Program-made: the position numbers and the translations under genes
Shown here: piece after piece, positions 14,947 to 47,085 of the stretch
Position numbering within the stretch: the first letter of the stretch is position 1
Layout of the letters: every line of letters starts with the position of its first letter
The notes under the pieces: model-generated
The model's input: the letters and a program-made list of their open reading frames with translations, nothing else
The model's database searches: none
Told to the model about the DNA's origin: nothing
Assembly: GCA_010405405.1 (NCBI GenBank)
Contig: MU004231.1
Coordinates: 4,142,884 to 4,206,883, forward strand
Source: Microthyrium microscopicum
Lineage: Eukaryota; Ascomycota; Dothideomycetes; Microthyriales; Microthyriaceae
Direction of reading: 5' to 3'
Length of the DNA stretch: 64,000 bases

Positions 14947-17900
14947 ATGCCACCAAAGCGATCTGGACCAGCCAACGAGAGCGGTGAGACTGCTCCTCGC
15001 AAGAGCACTCGAGCAGCCATGCAAGCCGCCAAAAAGGAAGCGGAGGCGGCTGAAGTGGCAGTCAAAACTAACTCTCAGGCCTACCAGCGCAATGTACTTG
15101 CTCGTAGCAAGAAAATTGCCCAACGTCGCCAGCTCTCCAAGGGCATGGATTCCAAACAGGATTCCCCGGAGTCCGAGGCTACTTCTTCCAACCCAGGACC
15201 CAACGGCTCTGAGACCGCTCGTGGCAAGAAGAAAAAGGACCCAAATTCCATCAAAATTCCCGCTGGTAACCTATCATCCTCTGGAGACGGCAATAGTGCC
15301 AATATTGACGATGATCCTCTTATTGACACTGTCTCAGCTCTACCAAAACCTCTGGACATGAAAGGACCTACCTTGTCGACCATGGAGTTCATCATCCCGG
15401 TTCCCTTTGTCAGCCAGTCTGGTGGCCAGTACCAACGAATGATCACTGATAGCAAGGACTTGATCGAGGCATTCACCGCTTCCCGCGCTCCAACGTCTGA
15501 CATGGTCCAAAAGGCTTCGGATTTCGTGGAGTCTATGCGTGACATTTGCTTGCATCTCGATTTCGTCCAAAAACCAAACCTTGACTTTCAAGGCGGCGAG
15601 GTCGAACCATCCCAGCAGGTAAGCTTTAGAGAATAGCACAATTGTCCAGAAGAATTTATAGCTAAAACTTTCAGGCATCATATGATCGCTCCATCAGCTA
15701 CAAGTTCCAACTATTGAGCGACATCTTCACCGCCTTGAAGGATCAGGGCTTCCACATTGTCATCTTCGCCAAAACCCGGCACTTGAACTTGGTTCGTGTC
15801 TTTGTCAAAGGCAGCAACAATGTCGCCAAGTCCAATACGACCGTCACTATCCTCTCCTCTACCGACTTTGAGTCAGACAACTTGCCGTCAGCCAATTTAA
15901 TGATCACCCTTGACAATGAAATGGATATTCATGCCTCTCAGGTTCACGAATTCCGTCAACAAGATGCGTATCTCGTGCCTATTATCTCCTTCGTCATCAA
16001 AAACACCATCGATCACATTGACCAAACTATGAAAGATAGCGTCAATGCAACAGAGCTTCTAGGCGTCGAAAAACTCCAGCACCAAGTTGCATGCATTGCG
16101 AAGCTTCGTGATCATGCCAAATTGAGCACATCCAAACTGAACACTCCCGACAAAGTCCAGATGCCAATCATTGCCGAACTGGTTGCCGACTTTGTTAAGA
16201 ACAAAACCGACAATTCAGAATGGGCAATTCTTCCTATCGGTCCACTGGATGACACAGACTCATACGAATTAGCGAATGGTAACGTTGTTTTGGAAACTGG
16301 AGGTCCCAATAATTCAGAAGAGGTCGTCGATGGGCAGGCGTCAGAAGGTGCGAAACGAAAACGTTCAAGTGAGGATACAGGCGAAGATGTTGGACGTCCA
16401 ACCAAAAAGCAGGTCTTCACTGGCCACGACGACTGCGTCAAGCGCGAGTCTGTCCTATCCCAGCAAATCACTCGCTTGAAACAAGAGCTCTCGGGTGTCC
16501 GCAAAGAGATGACAGGTAAGTGATGCTTTGAACGTGCTATGGCATTCGCCAATCAGCACAGGTCTTAAAGCTTCCAGCTAACATATCCCAGGCAAATTTG
16601 CAGAGCAGACTGAGCTTCGGGAGATAATCGCAGCAAAAGATGCGCACATTCATCGAATGGAGAATGACTGGAATGACACGATCGAAAAGCTACATGCGAA
16701 AGACCGTGCCATCGCTCAACATGAGAAGGACGCTGCGAAATATCGCGACGATTTGGAAAAGTCTCTTGATGTACGACGCCGTCGTGATGAACAAAATTCT
16801 CTCCTTCGATCTCAGATGGAAGAGCTTACTGCGCAGCGTGACGAGGCACGACAAAAGCTTGAGTCCAGCGAGATTCCAGAAATTGCCGAAATGCAGCGCC
16901 TCACTCGTGAAAAAGAGGAGGCCGAAGCCGCTCAAGTCAAGGCCGAAAAACGTTTCGACTCTAGTGAACAACAGGCCGCCTACTTGCGTGATCAATATCA
17001 GCAAAACTCCATTGAAGCCATGAAACTTACCGAAGAAAATGACGAGCTCAAGGCCAAAAACAAAGATTTGGCACGCAAAGCGAGTGGTGAAGCGCGAATG
17101 CTCCGTGAAGCGACTAACGAAGGAATCATCGCACAGCACCTAGAACTCAAAAAGGAAATGGAGGCTGAGATTGTTAGCTTGAAAGCTGCCGTCGCAGCAC
17201 AAGAACTTGAGTTGCAAAAGAAACGAAGCGGTGTGAATACTAGAGCTCAGTCTGTCCCGCGTTCCCCACGAGTAGGTCCCATATCAAGCCGCGCTGGCTC
17301 CCCTATCCCTGACCGTCGAGTGGAGTCGCTGAAGAACAGCTCTCTGTGAGTTCTCTATTTCATATCGCGTGAATTGCGACTTTGATTCGGTTCGCCAATG
17401 ATGCAAACTTGTTGGCTACACCAGTCTCCGATTCGGTCCTATTTTTTTTGAACCTGATGGAACATGCTGCTGACTTTATTTAGTGCCGGCAAGAAAACAA
17501 ACGCGCCCGTCAAGTCAACTCGCGGCCAAACCAACGCACGAGAACCAAACCAGCGCCAGAACCAGCGTCAGACTCAGAAGGAATCCCATTCGCAGCGCCA
17601 AAGTCAAGCAGAAACCGGAAGCCCGCGCCAGACCCAGCGACAGCGCCAGAGCCAGGCTCAGCGTCAAACACAAGCAGAAAGCGGAAGAGAGACGAGTCAG
17701 CGCCAGAAGCAGAACCAGCGCCAGAGTCAAAACGATCGAGAACCCAACCGTCGCACTTCACGCCAGCAGTCACTCGAGCGCGCGCAAGACGACTCGCAGC
17801 AGTCCCTCCCACAGACACAACAGGAACAACCCGACGAGGACGCAATGGAGTTAGATCAGCAACAGCCGAGCCGAGCAGACGGTCTGCTCGACTCAAAGCT

Positions 17901-19470
17901 ACCTGAAATACAACCAGCACAACCAACTCGGCCTCCGGCCATTGAGATGAAGAGTGGTCCACCAGCTTCTAGACCATTCCCATGCTGTTTCGCGCAATAT
18001 AATTGTAATGCATCATTTACCTCAAAGAACGAATGGAAACGACACATCAGCACCAAGCATATACAATTAGGTTTCTGGCGATGCGACATGTGTAACCCCT
18101 CCCCCGGCCTCGATCATCCGGTTTTCAACGACTTTAACAGAAAGGATTTATTTACTCAGCATCTTCGACGAATGCATGCACCTAATTCCCCAAGTCTTCC
18201 TACAACTCCGAGCCAAGCCACAGCTCCGGAGCCAATTGTAGATCCAGCCTCTCCTTCAGCAAATGGCCCAAGCGGTCCTCGTGGCGAATTGAGCGATGAG
18301 CAGATTGCAGATATTCAAAAACGTTGCTATCGCATTCTTCGTCAGCCGCCTCAGCAGTCCAATTGCCCATTCTGCAGTCGAATCTTTTCTGGACCAAATA
18401 GTTGGGAAGAGCGTTTAGAGCACGTGGGTGGTCACCTTGAACGCGATCGCAAAAATGGAACAAATTGTCTTGATATTGAATCTTGGCGAGATGATGACGA
18501 GCTGCGTCAATATCTTGTACGAGAAGGAATTGTTGAGCAAGATCAGCGAGGTCAATGGCGTATTGGCGATGGACGTCCTCGACGACCAACTGATATACAG
18601 CCTCCTACATCAAACCCACCATCTGCTACCCCTGGAGCTCAGTCTACAACCATGCTGCAAGGTGAACAGGAATCGGATGGGTCGATGAGTAAGCGTCGTC
18701 GAGGTAGACCCCCGAAGCGTTACTCTGATATCGATACACCACAGAGACTAGCACCAAATATGTCTCCAATGGGTTCACCATCCGAAATACGAGCACGACC
18801 TGAGCAACATTCTCTCCAGCCAGCTCCACCTCACACTCCTGGTCCTCATCCTACTTCAGATATGCGTGGACATCACATTCAACCTCGTATTGATTCCACG
18901 CCTGTTACTCCGATTTCTGGACCTCCTAGTCAACAGTATCATGATTCTTATCATCCACCACCTCTCGCACCGCAATCGCTTCCTCGCCCGCCCCATTCAC
19001 TTGGAACTCCACAACATCCTCAGGATCCAAATTCTGGGAGCTCCAATGGACCTCAGCGACCTCAACTACTCCCACACCTCATGCCACGCCAGCCTCAGAA
19101 TTCTCCTGGACAGGGTCCTATGGGTCCATATGGCAGCCAACAGCAATCCCATCCAGCGAGTGGTCCTCAGGCCGTTGCTATTGCTCCAGCATATCACCAT
19201 CATCATGGTATGCAGGCAATCGCTCCCGCTCCACCACAAAGTCAGGTCGCGCCACCAGCAGCCATTATGGGTCCGAATGGGCCAGTGGCCATTTCACAAG
19301 CCATGCAGCAGCAGTTTGTTGCGCAACAGGCACTTGGTCCAATCAGTCAAGGTTCACCGCTAGGTCCAGCTTTGGCCCCAGCTCCTCAACCTTCCCCTTC
19401 TGCAGAGCAGCTAGGCTCGGAACAGCAACGGCCTCGGACTTTTAGAGAAGTCATTTTTGAGCAGCATTAG
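14947..19470 (+). CDS. HDA3: HDA1-complex subunit 2/3-like protein joined to C2H2 fingers and AT-hook
   Basis: Predicted chromatin protein. Four exons: 14947-15618, 15675-16515, 16592-17345, 17484-19470, giving 1417 residues. Residues 1-125 are basic and disordered. Residues about 130-400 resemble the class II histone deacetylase complex subunit 2/3 domain (TMEFIIPVPF, KFQLLSDIFTAL, FHIVIFAKTRH, LVPIISFVIKNTIDHID), which in yeast Hda2/Hda3 docks the deacetylase. Residues about 480-725 are a long coiled coil. Exon 4 adds a Gln-rich tract (about 770-880), C2H2-type fingers (about 920-1060: CNASFTSKNEWKRHISTKH, FWRCDMC with QHLRRMH, and NCPFCSRIF with HVGGH), an AT-hook RRRGRPPKR near 1160 and a Pro/Gln-rich tail. 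A reader could instead see two genes (stop at 17349; ATG at 17464). I prefer one, because the gap is only 114 nt, a GTGAGT donor, a GCTGAC branch site and a TTTAG acceptor fit, and the phase matches. Confidence 0.62.
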
Positions 19471-20304
19471 GTCCGCGATCGAAAAGGTGTCGGTCAGATG
19501 ATAGGATGGGAAGACGGCTATTGTCGATGAAGGAGAAGGAAGGGCCTGGGAGTGATGGTGGTGACAATCTGTCGGATGGAGAAACACAATGGCAAGCCAC
19601 TGGGTGTTGATGCTTGTTGCTGCTTTGCAGCAATTAAGACCCACCCAGACGGCCTTTAGCTACTGGTTGTTGATGCTTATTGCTGCCTCGCAGCGAGTAA
19701 GACCCATCCAGAAATATTAGCTAGCTACTGGGTGTTGATGCTTATTGCTTCGCAGCAATTAAGACCTACCCAGAAGTTGTTCTTCTGCCCAGCAGATTTG
19801 CTAGCCAGCCTGAGCCTCCAGGCTCGAACAAGGCCAGGCATTGATTGATGTATGAGTATGGATTGGTTTGCAAAAGTTCTCTTATTCTTCTAATGGACAT
19901 GCTTTTGTTTGACAATTCGCGCCAAGTCTCTGTGACATTAATCCATGCTAATATGGCAATATGGCAGTCTAGGTGACTATTAAGAGCAATCGTTTAGTTT
20001 TCGTGACCAAGATTCAGCGACGGTTGAGCCACCATCTCATAATGCTGACAAAGTACAAGATTTCCGGGATTCCGCGCATATGCAGATTGCTAACGACAAG
20101 AGACGGAACGAGTGGGATGTCAGAGTGATGTCAAGAGCTACAGGCAGCCGATGCTTAGCCCCGCGGAATCCCTTCTCGAGTCGCCCCTCGCTCTCTGGAC
20201 AAATCTTTCCGCGATTTCTCAGAGTCAATTAGTGCACCTTTAAAAACCTCATCAATCTCCAATTTTCAATTACCTTCCAGTCAAATCGCTCCTCGTCAGC
20301 CAAT
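19471..20304. other. intergenic, with hairpin repeats
   Basis: This holds the 3' region of the HDA3-like/C2H2 gene, three tandem hairpin units (19600-19773) and the promoter of the transaldolase gene. No coding region was recognised. Confidence 0.5.
19600..19773. repeat. three tandem hairpin-forming repeats
   Basis: Three imperfect copies, at 19600-19648, 19663-19711 and 19728-19773, start about 64 nt apart. Each begins CTGG(G/T)TGTTGATGCTT, has a central self-complementary TTGCTGC...GCAGCAA or shorter loop, and ends with (A)AGACC(C/T)A(C/T)CCAG, so each folds on itself. The copies differ at several sites while keeping the pairing ends, which suggests selection for structure or repeated duplication. 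They lie 130 nt after the stop codon of the preceding gene, possibly in its 3' UTR. Confidence 0.7.
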
Positions 20305-21414
20305 ATGTCCAGCTCACTCGACCAATTGAAGGCCACTGGCACCGTAAGAGCTCCCATCTCTCAAGCTCACGATTGACATCACTGCGCTTGATAGACTTCA
20401 CCAAGACGATTGACTAACACCTAAACAGACAGTCGTGTGCGACTCTGGTGACTTTGCCACCATTGATAAGTACAAGCCTCAAGATGCAACCACCAACCCC
20501 TCTCTTATCCTCGCTGCGTCCAAGAAGTCCGAATACGCCGCTCTCATCGACAAAGCTGTTGAATACGGCAAGAAGAAGGGAGGCGATCTTGACCATCAAG
20601 TTGATGCCACACTTGACAATCTCCTTGTGCAATTCGGTAGCGAAATCCTTAAGATCATTCCTGGCAAAGTATCCACGGAAGTCGATGCCCGCTTCTCCTT
20701 CGACACCAAAGCTAGTGTTGACAAGGCCTTGCACATTATCGAACTCTACAAAGAGATTGGCATTGGTAAGGAGCGCATCTTGATCAAGATTGCTAGCACA
20801 TGGGAGGGTATCAAAGCCGCAGAGATTCTGCAACGCGATCATGGCATCAACTGCAACTTGACACTCATGTTCTCGCTCGTCCAAGCTATCGCTGGTGCTG
20901 AAGCAGGTGCTTTCTTGATCTCGCCATTTGTGGGCCGCATTTTGGATTGGTACAAGGCGCACACTGGCAAGACATATGCGGCTTCCGAGGATCCTGGTGT
21001 CCAGAGCGTGGGTAGCATTTACAACTACTACAAGAAGTACGGATACAAGACTATTGTCATGGGTGCTTCGTTCCGAAATGTTGGCGAGATCACAGAGCTT
21101 GCTGGTTGCGATTATCTCACAATCTCGGTAAGATTGCAATTTTCAAAAGATAAGCTTTGCGCTAACTTGTATGATAGCCAAATCTTCTTGAGGATATGTT
21201 TACCTCTCAGGATGCGGTTCCAAAGAAGCTTGATGCTTCCGCTGCTTCGTCTCTTGATATCGAGAAGAAGACATATATCAAAGACGAGGCCACCTTCCGC
21301 TTTGACTTCAACGAGGACCAGATGGCCGTTGAGAAGCTTCGTGAAGGTATCTCCAAGTTTGCAGCTGATGCTGAGACTCTCAAGGGTATCCTGAAGGAAA
21401 AGATCCAAGCATAA
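20305..21414 (+). CDS. TAL1: transaldolase
   Basis: Cytosolic enzyme of the non-oxidative pentose phosphate pathway; it moves a dihydroxyacetone unit from sedoheptulose 7-phosphate to glyceraldehyde 3-phosphate through a Schiff-base lysine. Three exons: 20305-20343, 20429-21127, 21178-21414, giving 324 residues, the normal length. Family signatures are DATTNPSLI near residue 33, the catalytic-lysine region [13 protein letters not shown] near 130, [11 protein letters not shown] and [11 protein letters not shown]. The last exon completes the barrel and C-terminal helices (PNLLEDM... to [11 protein letters not shown]). The first coding exon is 39 nt. It lies upstream of SOD1 on the same strand. 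Confidence 0.96.
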
Positions 21415-43727: not shown

Positions 43728-45324
43728 GTTTGCTTCTACTGAAAATTACTAAAGGAGTGTGGTTGTGCTGTTGTGAAGTTGATGGACTAAAGTGTAGAGA
43801 GCCGCTAAGTAATATAGATCTGTATGTTGTCTCTTTAGCACACCGAGGTGTTCATGCCCAGCTAAATTAAAACAATAAGCTTTGCGCAAGGACGATCTCC
43901 GATCCCATCTACGCGATCTAAAGCAATTTAATACAGTACTATTATTCGACAATCGGCATGTCGGTCTTGAATTTCTGTCACTATAAGCAGGTCTCGTTAG
44001 ACTGCCCACATCATGATGAAATCTCCTACTGGCCAAAAGATTAGCAGAAGACTAGGAATATCTTCTTGTCACTATATGCCCTACGATCGATGTGGGACAT
44101 GGGTAAGTATAAATTAAATCTTCACACACAATACGTCTTGCGTGACCCAGATCTATTAAATGATCTTTGACAGCTCGCTAAGCTGATGACTTAAATGAAG
44201 GATGCTCTTTACGCATACCTATCCGGTTATCCCAATTTTGTGAGTTGGGACGTTGATGCAAGGCTGAAAGCTGTCAACCAATCAAAGTTACTAGTCCTTC
44301 GACATCTACTTTCTATTGGCCGCTGAGAAGACTGCGAGGCTGACCAGGCCAGAAATAAGTATTCAGCCAATTTATACTCCAATTGGCATCCACGTTACGG
44401 AGATGTGGCGAAAAGCCTATCAAATAGCCGGGTTATGAACTGCAGAATAAACCACGGAATGTTATACAATATCTGTTTACACGCCATATCAAGCCTTTGT
44501 TAATTCACTGCGCAGAAAGTCAAAGTCAAGTTTGAAATACAAGACCTCAGCCGATTGTGTTTGGTTTCTTACCTGTTTTGTTGAGGGACTTTTTGAATGG
44601 CAACAAATCACCCAACAACACCAAAAGATTTTGGATAACATCTCAAGCTAGACCTTGGACATTTGTAGCTCCAAAATCATCAGCGTGATGCGCACATTCG
44701 CGCTATTACCTTGAAATTCACAAAGTCTTTCTCGGTTTCATATCCCTCTCTCTTCTTACCTTACTTCTTTGAGTCAGTCAGGTAATGCTAATTTCCAACC
44801 AAATTTGCAACCTAGAGTATGCTGAACACTCGAAATTGCAAAGTTTTGCGCAAAGGTGTCCAAGGACGGAATTATTATTGAGGGAAACTGACTGGTTACT
44901 TAGCTCTTTGAAGTTCCTTTAGAATTTAAAGCTATCGTGCAGTCAGAAACCAAAGCGATCAAACGGTTGAAATTCCTGCTGTCTGGCGTCTTGAATGAAG
45001 ATATAGGGTACTGTTCTCAGCTACTATCATTACAGATGTTAGACAATTTCACAGGAAGAGATATCACGGCCCCTAGGTTTCGGAGATATCTACAGCTACT
45101 CGGCTGCTAGCAAGACGGCGCACGATGGCTACTCAGACTTTCGTTGGCTGTGCCGTGGCCCGATGGGCTTGATCTATTGACGAGAAGAAGCACCTGCGAA
45201 CAAGTACCCCTTACGCTAGGCCATATTAGGCTCTAAACAACCACCCTGTTGACAACCTCCCTGTTGGTGGCGCATCTTGTTTTTGTGCAAGGCTGAAAAA
45301 AAGGTATCGCCATCTTGTTTTCTA
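43728..45324. other. 1.6-kb intergenic region upstream of the AA9 gene
   Basis: Promoter of the AA9 gene and flanking DNA up to the transposon. Base composition looks ordinary, unlike the transposon interior, so the RIP-like decay has not visibly spread here. No gene seen. Confidence 0.5.
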
Positions 45325-45368
45325 ACGTAGTGGACAGGGTTTCCAACAGACCCCCTTTCCGACACCCC
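45325..45368 (+). repeat. left terminal inverted repeat, 44 bp
   Basis: Begins ACGTAGTGGACAGGGTTTCC and ends in CCGACACCCC. Matches the right repeat at 43 of 44 positions; the single difference (A here, G on the right copy's equivalent strand) is a G-to-A change as RIP would make. Confidence 0.93.
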
Positions 45369-47085
45369 ACATTAGATAATTGTAGATTTACTTAAACTAC
45401 CACAACAATGTAATTAAATGTTGTTTTGCTTTAAAATTTAAATAGTAAATTAAGAAGACCTTAAAAATTGCGTTTCTGCCTTTTTAAATAGTAAATATAC
45501 CTTAGAAGTCAAAGCAGCAAAGGCTTTTAGGGTTCCTAGATCTACCTTAAAGGGACGATTAAAAGGCGCTAAAAATCACAAATCTAGCTATTCCTCTTAT
45601 TAAAAATTATTAATTACAGAAAAGCATAAAGTTGTCCTTTAGTATAAGAATAAGGAATTAGCTAGTTATCTTCCTACCTACGTAAGGATTAAAAACTTTG
45701 CTTAAGAAATTTTATAATAGTAAATTCTAAAGGCCTTTTTAGGCGCAAATTAGCATAAATCGTTTAAAAGACGAAATCTAGATATCGTTTCTATTATAGT
45801 AAGACGTATTAATAAATAGCAAGTTAATAGAACTAATTTCAAAGCTATTATAGACTTCTTTTAATAATTTAAAAGTACTATTTCTTCTCTTAAGGTTAAA
45901 CTAGCTAATATACATAATATAGACGAGATAGGAATATGTCTAAGCATTACTAGTAAAGAAGTAGTTATTATATCTCAATAGATAGTAGAAATAACGAAAT
46001 CTAAAGACTTATTCGTCTTAAAAAATAGTAGTAGAGAGAATACTTTAATTCTTAAAACTATGTTAGCTACTAGTTAAACTATACTATTTTTAGCTATTTA
46101 TAAAGGCTAAAATATTCAAAATTCTTAGTTCCTTCTTAGATTACGTAAAGAACTTAAATTTAAAGGCTTTTTCTTTGCTATAATAACTAATAGCTAGACG
46201 TTAAATTAGTTAGGCGAACAATAGCTTAAAATGACCTTTTTACCCTTTATAAAACTATTAGATCCTTTAGAATAGAGGATTTTAATCTGTAATAACTATA
46301 GATTATATACTACTTTAGAATTTCGTTATCTTTACTTTAAAAATAAGATCTAAATCGTCTATTTACCTCTATATTTATTATATTAAACTTAGCCTTTAGA
46401 TATTAGTATTTTTAGACTATTAAAACGACATTTTATAGCCATACTTAATAAATCTTCTCTTAAGTCTTTATCTACTCCTGTTTAGAAGAGAATCTTTATA
46501 TAAATATATATAATTGCTTATTAAAAAGCTTTCTATAAAGCGAATGGCGTTTCTGCTTTTAAAGTAACTAGAATTTAGCCTATAAATTAATATAAAGTAC
46601 TTTAGTATATTCTACTAACTCCTAAAAATCCTTAATAGTTAATTTCTATGCAATCTATATCTATTTCTCCTTCTTTACCTTCTTTGCCCTTTATTAAAAG
46701 GCTTTAGTTTATGCTAAGAATAAAGAGATTAATTATGCGCGGTATTTTAAAAGAAATAAGCTAAATCTCTTTTTATAATTTGGCCTTATAATAATATATA
46801 GTTATGCTTCAAAATTAAGTAACTATGCTTATAGTACCTAAAGAATTAGACATAAGGAAGAAGAGGAATTATAATGAAGAATTAAAGAATACAAATTTAA
46901 TTATATTAGAATATGCTTCAAACAAGCTTATATAAGCTTCTGAAGCTATTTTAAAGGCTTAGAAACTAATTAAAAAGAAGAAATATAGCGTAAAGATCAA
47001 GCTTAATTTATCTATTTAATTTATTTAATTATCTTGTGTTTTAGCTAAGATATCTTATAGTAAAGATCTAGTAATTATCTATTTT

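Follow-up and report, generated by a model that had tools for sequence, protein, structure and literature searches.

An Hda2/3-like subunit probably joined to C2H2-like fingers and an AT-hook core in Microthyrium microscopicum

Introduction

The plus-strand locus at 14947..19470 of a 64,000-nucleotide stretch of contig MU004231.1 of Microthyrium microscopicum (hereafter the window, to which all coordinates refer) raises the question of whether a scaffold subunit of the HDA1 deacetylase complex carries C2H2 fingers and an AT-hook on its own polypeptide chain, or whether two separate genes lie here side by side. A first-pass annotation proposed the former, with a 138-nt intron joining an Hda2/3-like half to a finger and AT-hook half. 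We find that one fused gene is the best and most economical reading of the sequence, with an estimated probability of roughly two in three. The evidence for each half and for the intron between them is presented below together with the competing readings. Searches of the organism's own genome covered the 36.9-Mb assembly of 20 contigs.

Gene organization

The locus can be read as four exons. Exon 1 (14947..15618) contains the start codon and encodes the N-terminal part of the Hda2/3-like subunit in an open reading frame that leads to a GTAAGC donor at 15619. Intron 1 (15619..15674; 56 nt, phase 0) was assigned by direct reading of its GTAAGC...TTTCAG boundaries; it departs from the CTRAY branch-site rule and is absent from the set of 34 introns described below. 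Exon 2 (15675..16515) holds the best HDA2-3 stretch, residues 285-371 corresponding to positions 171-255 of PF11496. Intron 2 (16516..16591; 76 nt, phase 1), with its GTAAGT donor, CTAAC branch site and CCCAG acceptor, was found by the intron scan. Exon 3 (16592..17345) encodes a charged, proline-poor stretch, possibly a coiled coil, followed by a Ser/Arg/Pro-rich tail.

Intron 3 (17346..17483; 138 nt, phase 2) joins the two parts. It has a GTGAGT donor, a CTGAC branch site and a TTTAG acceptor, whose AG occupies 17482-17483, and from there the frame is open to the stop codon at 19468-19470; its coordinates, splice signals and phase are as originally claimed. Exon 4 (17484..19470) carries the phase of exon 3 on for 661 whole codons and encodes a Gln/Arg-rich linker, three C2H2-like fingers, an AT-hook core and a Pro/Gln/His-rich tail before the stop. 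The joined four-exon frame specifies 1,417 amino acids. An in-frame TGA at 17347-17349 sits inside the GTGAGT donor itself, and retention of intron 3 would consequently end translation there and yield a 756-aa product.

Three direct repeats of 55 nt in register, spaced by 63 and 62 nt, occupy 19595-19775. The array starts 125 nt past the stop codon and presumably belongs to the 3' untranslated region. The repeats fold into three hairpins with a predicted energy of -71.2 kcal/mol for 19590-19790 (z -3.86; none of 200 shuffles was as stable), and a genome search returned no other copy of them. The next gene downstream, at 20306-21414 with ends placed by eye, encodes a transaldolase (PF00923, 263.3 bits on 20414-21130). 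Further along the window, 45001-47000 is sharply AT-rich, with GC fractions of 0.348 and then 0.240 per kilobase against 0.41-0.52 in the flanking kilobases, and is possibly a mutated repeat. Within the window Rfam gave 0 matches at the gathering score.

The finger and AT-hook half

The linker at the start of exon 4 includes 37 Gln and 19 Arg among its 148 residues. It leads into the finger module, which together with a conserved stretch after it (17971..18588) is 45% identical to a paralog, L010, with an E value of 1.1e-51. Over the finger module the identity is 45-46% and all 12 of the 12 finger Cys/His positions are conserved, in a comparison of these two sequences only. The paralog shares the three-finger module; unlike the present gene, it is a stand-alone frame of 544 codons elsewhere in the genome, is devoid of an HDA2-3 domain and ends right after the module. 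About 325 residues lie between its first Met and its fingers.

None of the C2H2 models reaches its Pfam cut-off on the exon 4 fingers. Six weak matches to solved structures were obtained for exon 4, with E values of 0.16-0.82, to Aiolos, Ikaros and CTCF fingers and to a maturase. The predicted fingers are nevertheless clear from the Cys/His pattern and from paralogy to L010, though below the Pfam cut-offs. Direct reading of the sequence also places an AT-hook core, KRRRGRPPK, at 18691..18717; PF02178 scores 12.9 bits there, under its cut-off of 17.4, and the core is not among the 7 places listed by the genome search with that profile. Of the Gln-rich, C2H2 and AT-hook region described in the first-pass annotation, the linker, the Cys/His pattern and the RGRPPK core are therefore present, but neither a finger model nor an AT-hook model attains its Pfam cut-off.

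Intron 3 and the case for a single gene

The likelihood that intron 3 arises by chance was estimated by dinucleotide-shuffling 17346-17483 5,000 times with the real flanks kept. An intron that kept the phase and had all three signals (donor, branch site and acceptor) appeared in 2 of the 5,000 shuffles under a strict donor definition and in 11 under a loose one. A conservative intron scan, limited to lengths of 45-160 nt and to the branch rule CTRAY, was run over the window plus another 20 stretches of 10 kb from the genome, and yielded 34 introns in total, intron 3 included. GTGAGT is the second commonest donor in this set (7/34), and a length of at least 130 nt occurs in two of the 34, intron 3 being one of them. 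Taken together, the rarity among shuffles and the scan indicate a good splice signal in an intron of unusual length, and intron 3 is most likely spliced.

Because a consensus in-phase intron emerges from so few shuffles, the sequence is best read as one fused gene comprising the HDA2-3 half and the finger/AT-hook half. The claim of a fusion stands to the extent that the intron far exceeds chance expectation and that a single gene is the most economical account; against it count the stand-alone state of the nearest finger paralog, the unusual length of intron 3, the sub-threshold score of the AT-hook and a competing frame at 17484-17906, which is treated in the next section.

The alternative that survives best is a pair of closely packed genes, namely an Hda2/3 gene ending at the TGA at 17347-17349 (756 aa) and a C2H2/AT-hook gene starting from the ATG at 17464, 17845 or 17947. 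The independent existence of L010 agrees with this arrangement, as does the unspliced Hda part, which has the layout, a DNA-binding domain and then a coiled coil, given for yeast Hda2/3 in the available portions of PMC7062823. A start at 17464 would also leave 169 residues ahead of the fingers. However, that codon is the first ATG of the finger frame and lies only 114 nt beyond the Hda stop, an interval that would have to accommodate a 3' end, a promoter and a 5' end, and the starts at 17845 and 17947 leave 42 and 8 residues, respectively, ahead of the fingers. The finger part thus has little room for a promoter of its own. Two separate genes would moreover make the in-phase intron a coincidence of the frequency given above. 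We consider this arrangement unlikely.

A second open frame in the linker

A competing open frame runs through 17484..17906 on the same strand, offset by one base from the reading frame of exon 4. It comprises 140 codons and a stop codon at 17904-17906, ends in RRSARLKAT and would add a basic tail to the Hda part. T makes up only 7.4% of 17485-17903, and for this reason stops are rare and 17484-17844 is open in all three frames. Even so, the openness of the second frame across the T-poor 17484-17906 exceeds the expectation from codon resampling of the fused frame. When the fused frame was resampled with genome-average codons, the second frame was stop-free in 0 of 5,000 cases, with a mean of 7.7 stops; when the real codons of the fused frame were reordered, it was stop-free in 32 and 43 of 5,000 in two runs. 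The linker repeats weaken this codon-order test, and with four-codon blocks, which keep more of the repeats, the count rose to 891 of 5,000. Conversely, when the second frame served as the starting point, 540 of 5,000 resamplings and all 5,000 codon-order shuffles left the fused frame open.

Coding scores are nearly tied, and codon bias on its own is insufficient to tell the two frames apart. Over 17485-17724 the second frame is ahead by 2.4 log units; over 17485-17903 the lead, of 2.9 log units, belongs to the fused frame, which scores better from about 17680 onward. The synonymous codon score over 17484-17844 is 0.021 for the fused frame and -0.008 for the second. In a calibration on T-poor coding sequence, the true frame was best in 3 of 3 pieces with a clear margin, which the linker does not have, and another frame was stop-free in 3 of 3; the three pieces overlap within one ORF, a sample too small to lean on.

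These observations suggest a further alternative, in which the Hda2/3 gene extends as far as 17906 in the second frame, by way of another splice or because the assembly is wrong by one base after 17484, with the fingers belonging to a separate or overlapping gene. The asymmetry of the resampling tests (0 and 43 of 5,000 in one direction, 540 and 5,000 of 5,000 in the other) points this way, as do the slightly better coding score over 17485-17724 and the resemblance, judged by eye, of the second-frame tail to that of a nuclear protein. Yet the splices that would enter this frame are weak. The best is a GTAGGT donor at 17272 joined to 17483, an intron of 212 nt and the sole route listed that combines a pyrimidine-AG acceptor with the long tail; those from GTGTGA at 17231 to an AAG at 17493 or 17514 are poorer. 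In addition, a stop at 17904-17906 leaves 40 nt before the ATG at 17947, the scarcity of T makes stops rare in every frame, the repeats weaken the shuffles, and the fused frame scores better over the later part of the linker. Continuation in the second frame is rather improbable. A single fused gene was retained as the best reading because the splice into the second frame is weak and distant and the gap to the ATG at 17947 is so short.

The two frames and the TGA within the donor also raise the speculative idea that intron 3 acts as a switch. Retention of the intron would produce a plain 756-aa subunit and splicing a self-targeting 1,417-aa form, and the linker may be dual-coding, with a third form bearing the basic tail and arising from the weak donor at 17272. 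We regard such a switch as doubtful. If it did operate, the general and the targeted HDA1 scaffold would both come from a single gene, the only HDA2-3 gene found in this genome.

The Hda2/3-like half

A 289-aa piece of the predicted protein (residues 138-426) scored 33.3 bits on PF11496 (HDA2-3), whose cut-off is 27, in agreement with the proposal of an Hda2/3-like subunit encoded in three exons; the family was not reported at E values up to 0.1 when the 756-aa part was scanned whole. The same piece gave no match to a solved structure at E values up to 10, and a structure prediction for exon 2 from the single sequence, with no alignment, had a mean pLDDT of 33.3 and was unusable.

The region encoded by exon 3 lacks proline over two runs of residues, 467-599 and 601-726. 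Its 3.5-residue periodicity was reached by 139 of 5,000 shuffles for residues 505-720, by 583 of 5,000 for 560-700 and by 16 of 5,000 for 480-505. This charged, proline-poor region following the HDA2-3 domain may be a coiled coil, with weak periodicity.

A profile search of the genome with PF11496 returned six places, the present gene and five long SNF2/CHD-type frames, whose remodeller identity was judged by eye from helicase motifs. The presence of several Hda2/3 genes in the genome was rejected because the other five places lie in frames of this type, and a protein search of the genome did not find a second copy of the HDA2-3 domain. That the match instead reflects the degenerate C-terminal lobe of an SNF2 protein unconnected with any deacetylase complex is very improbable: the profile does match the five SNF2/CHD-type frames, and the Hda2/3 domain is described in the available part of PMC7062823 as a structural homologue of the SNF2 helicase lobe, but the Pfam scans of the Hda2/3-like protein returned no helicase family, the HDA2-3 score exceeds its cut-off, and the charged, proline-poor region comes next, as in Hda2/3.

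Comparison with known HDA1-type complexes

According to the available text of PMC7062823, yeast Hda2 and Hda3 have N-terminal domains that bind DNA non-specifically, and coiled coils pair the two proteins and are proposed to contact the deacetylase domain of HDA1. The premise of the first-pass annotation that DNA binding by an Hda2/3 subunit depends on fingers was for this reason too strong. The present protein resembles the yeast subunits in its HDA2-3 domain and in the charged, possibly coiled-coil region behind it, and an HDA1 with an Arb2-like domain is encoded in this genome as well. In contrast to yeast, one HDA2-3 subunit was found here and, if the two halves are fused, it has an additional C-terminal linker, C2H2 fingers and an AT-hook.

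CHAP of Neurospora has two AT-hooks and a zinc finger, and the zinc finger binds the Arb2 domain of HDA-1 and is not known to bind DNA. The fingers described here therefore need not be the DNA-reading part. Like CHAP, the fused protein would be a putative HDA1-complex subunit that combines a candidate AT-hook with zinc fingers, and HP1-like and HDA1 genes are present; unlike CHAP, it has one AT-hook core instead of two, and the likeness is drawn from descriptions of CHAP. For an AT-hook in an HDA1-type complex, as the first-pass annotation envisaged, there is precedent, since the available portions of PMC13297926 and PMC7218100 place the AT-hook protein CHAP in the Neurospora HDA-1 complex HCHC, and those of PMC7218100 state that CHAP recognises heterochromatic regions via its AT-hooks. 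The stand-alone finger paralog described above offers a likeness within the genome itself.

In the SHREC complex (Clr1, Clr2, Clr3 and Mit1) with Ccq1, Ccq1 is the Hda2/3-like protein and Clr1 carries zinc fingers. In that system, however, fingers and Hda2/3-like part reside on different chains. The chain of HDA2-3 domain, fingers and AT-hook predicted here is plausibly a novel architecture within a familiar class of complex. For Ccq1 of fission yeast, the available text of PMC5778466 reports structural homology to HDA2/3 and direct binding to Clr3.

Searches of viral_contigs, genome_contigs and plasmids gave no confirmed match to relatives; all three collections are non-fungal, and the result says nothing on the rarity of the fusion. 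A fused HDA2-3/finger protein is not named in the available portions of PMC13297926, PMC10861482, PMC8038932, PMC10512235, PMC8880415, PMC7218100, PMC5778466, PMC7062823 and PMC10913545, and PF11496 as a literature term had no match. The architecture could already be known in relatives, as CHAP was compared by description only, without its sequence, and the collections searched were non-fungal.

Proposed role and implications

The genome encodes an HDA1 (PF00850, 268.6 bits; Arb2-like domain, 82.8 bits) and an HP1-like protein (chromo, 54.4 bits; chromo shadow, 26.5 bits). By analogy with the known complexes, the HDA1 enzyme would most likely be held by the HDA2-3 domain together with the helical region. 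The AT-hook would then position or stabilise the complex at AT-rich DNA that is probably heterochromatic, and the fingers would make a further contact, either with DNA or with the Arb2 domain of HDA1. The whole would then be a scaffold subunit carrying a CHAP-like module, one that most likely joins HDA1 and most likely has a role in its targeting.

A genuine fusion would suggest that, in an HDA1-type silencing complex, scaffold and DNA-targeting factor operate together as a single unit. It would also provide a natural test of how a fungal deacetylase chooses its sites without relying on HP1 alone. By the Rosetta-stone argument, relatives of the finger/AT-hook part in other fungi would then become candidate partners of HDA1.
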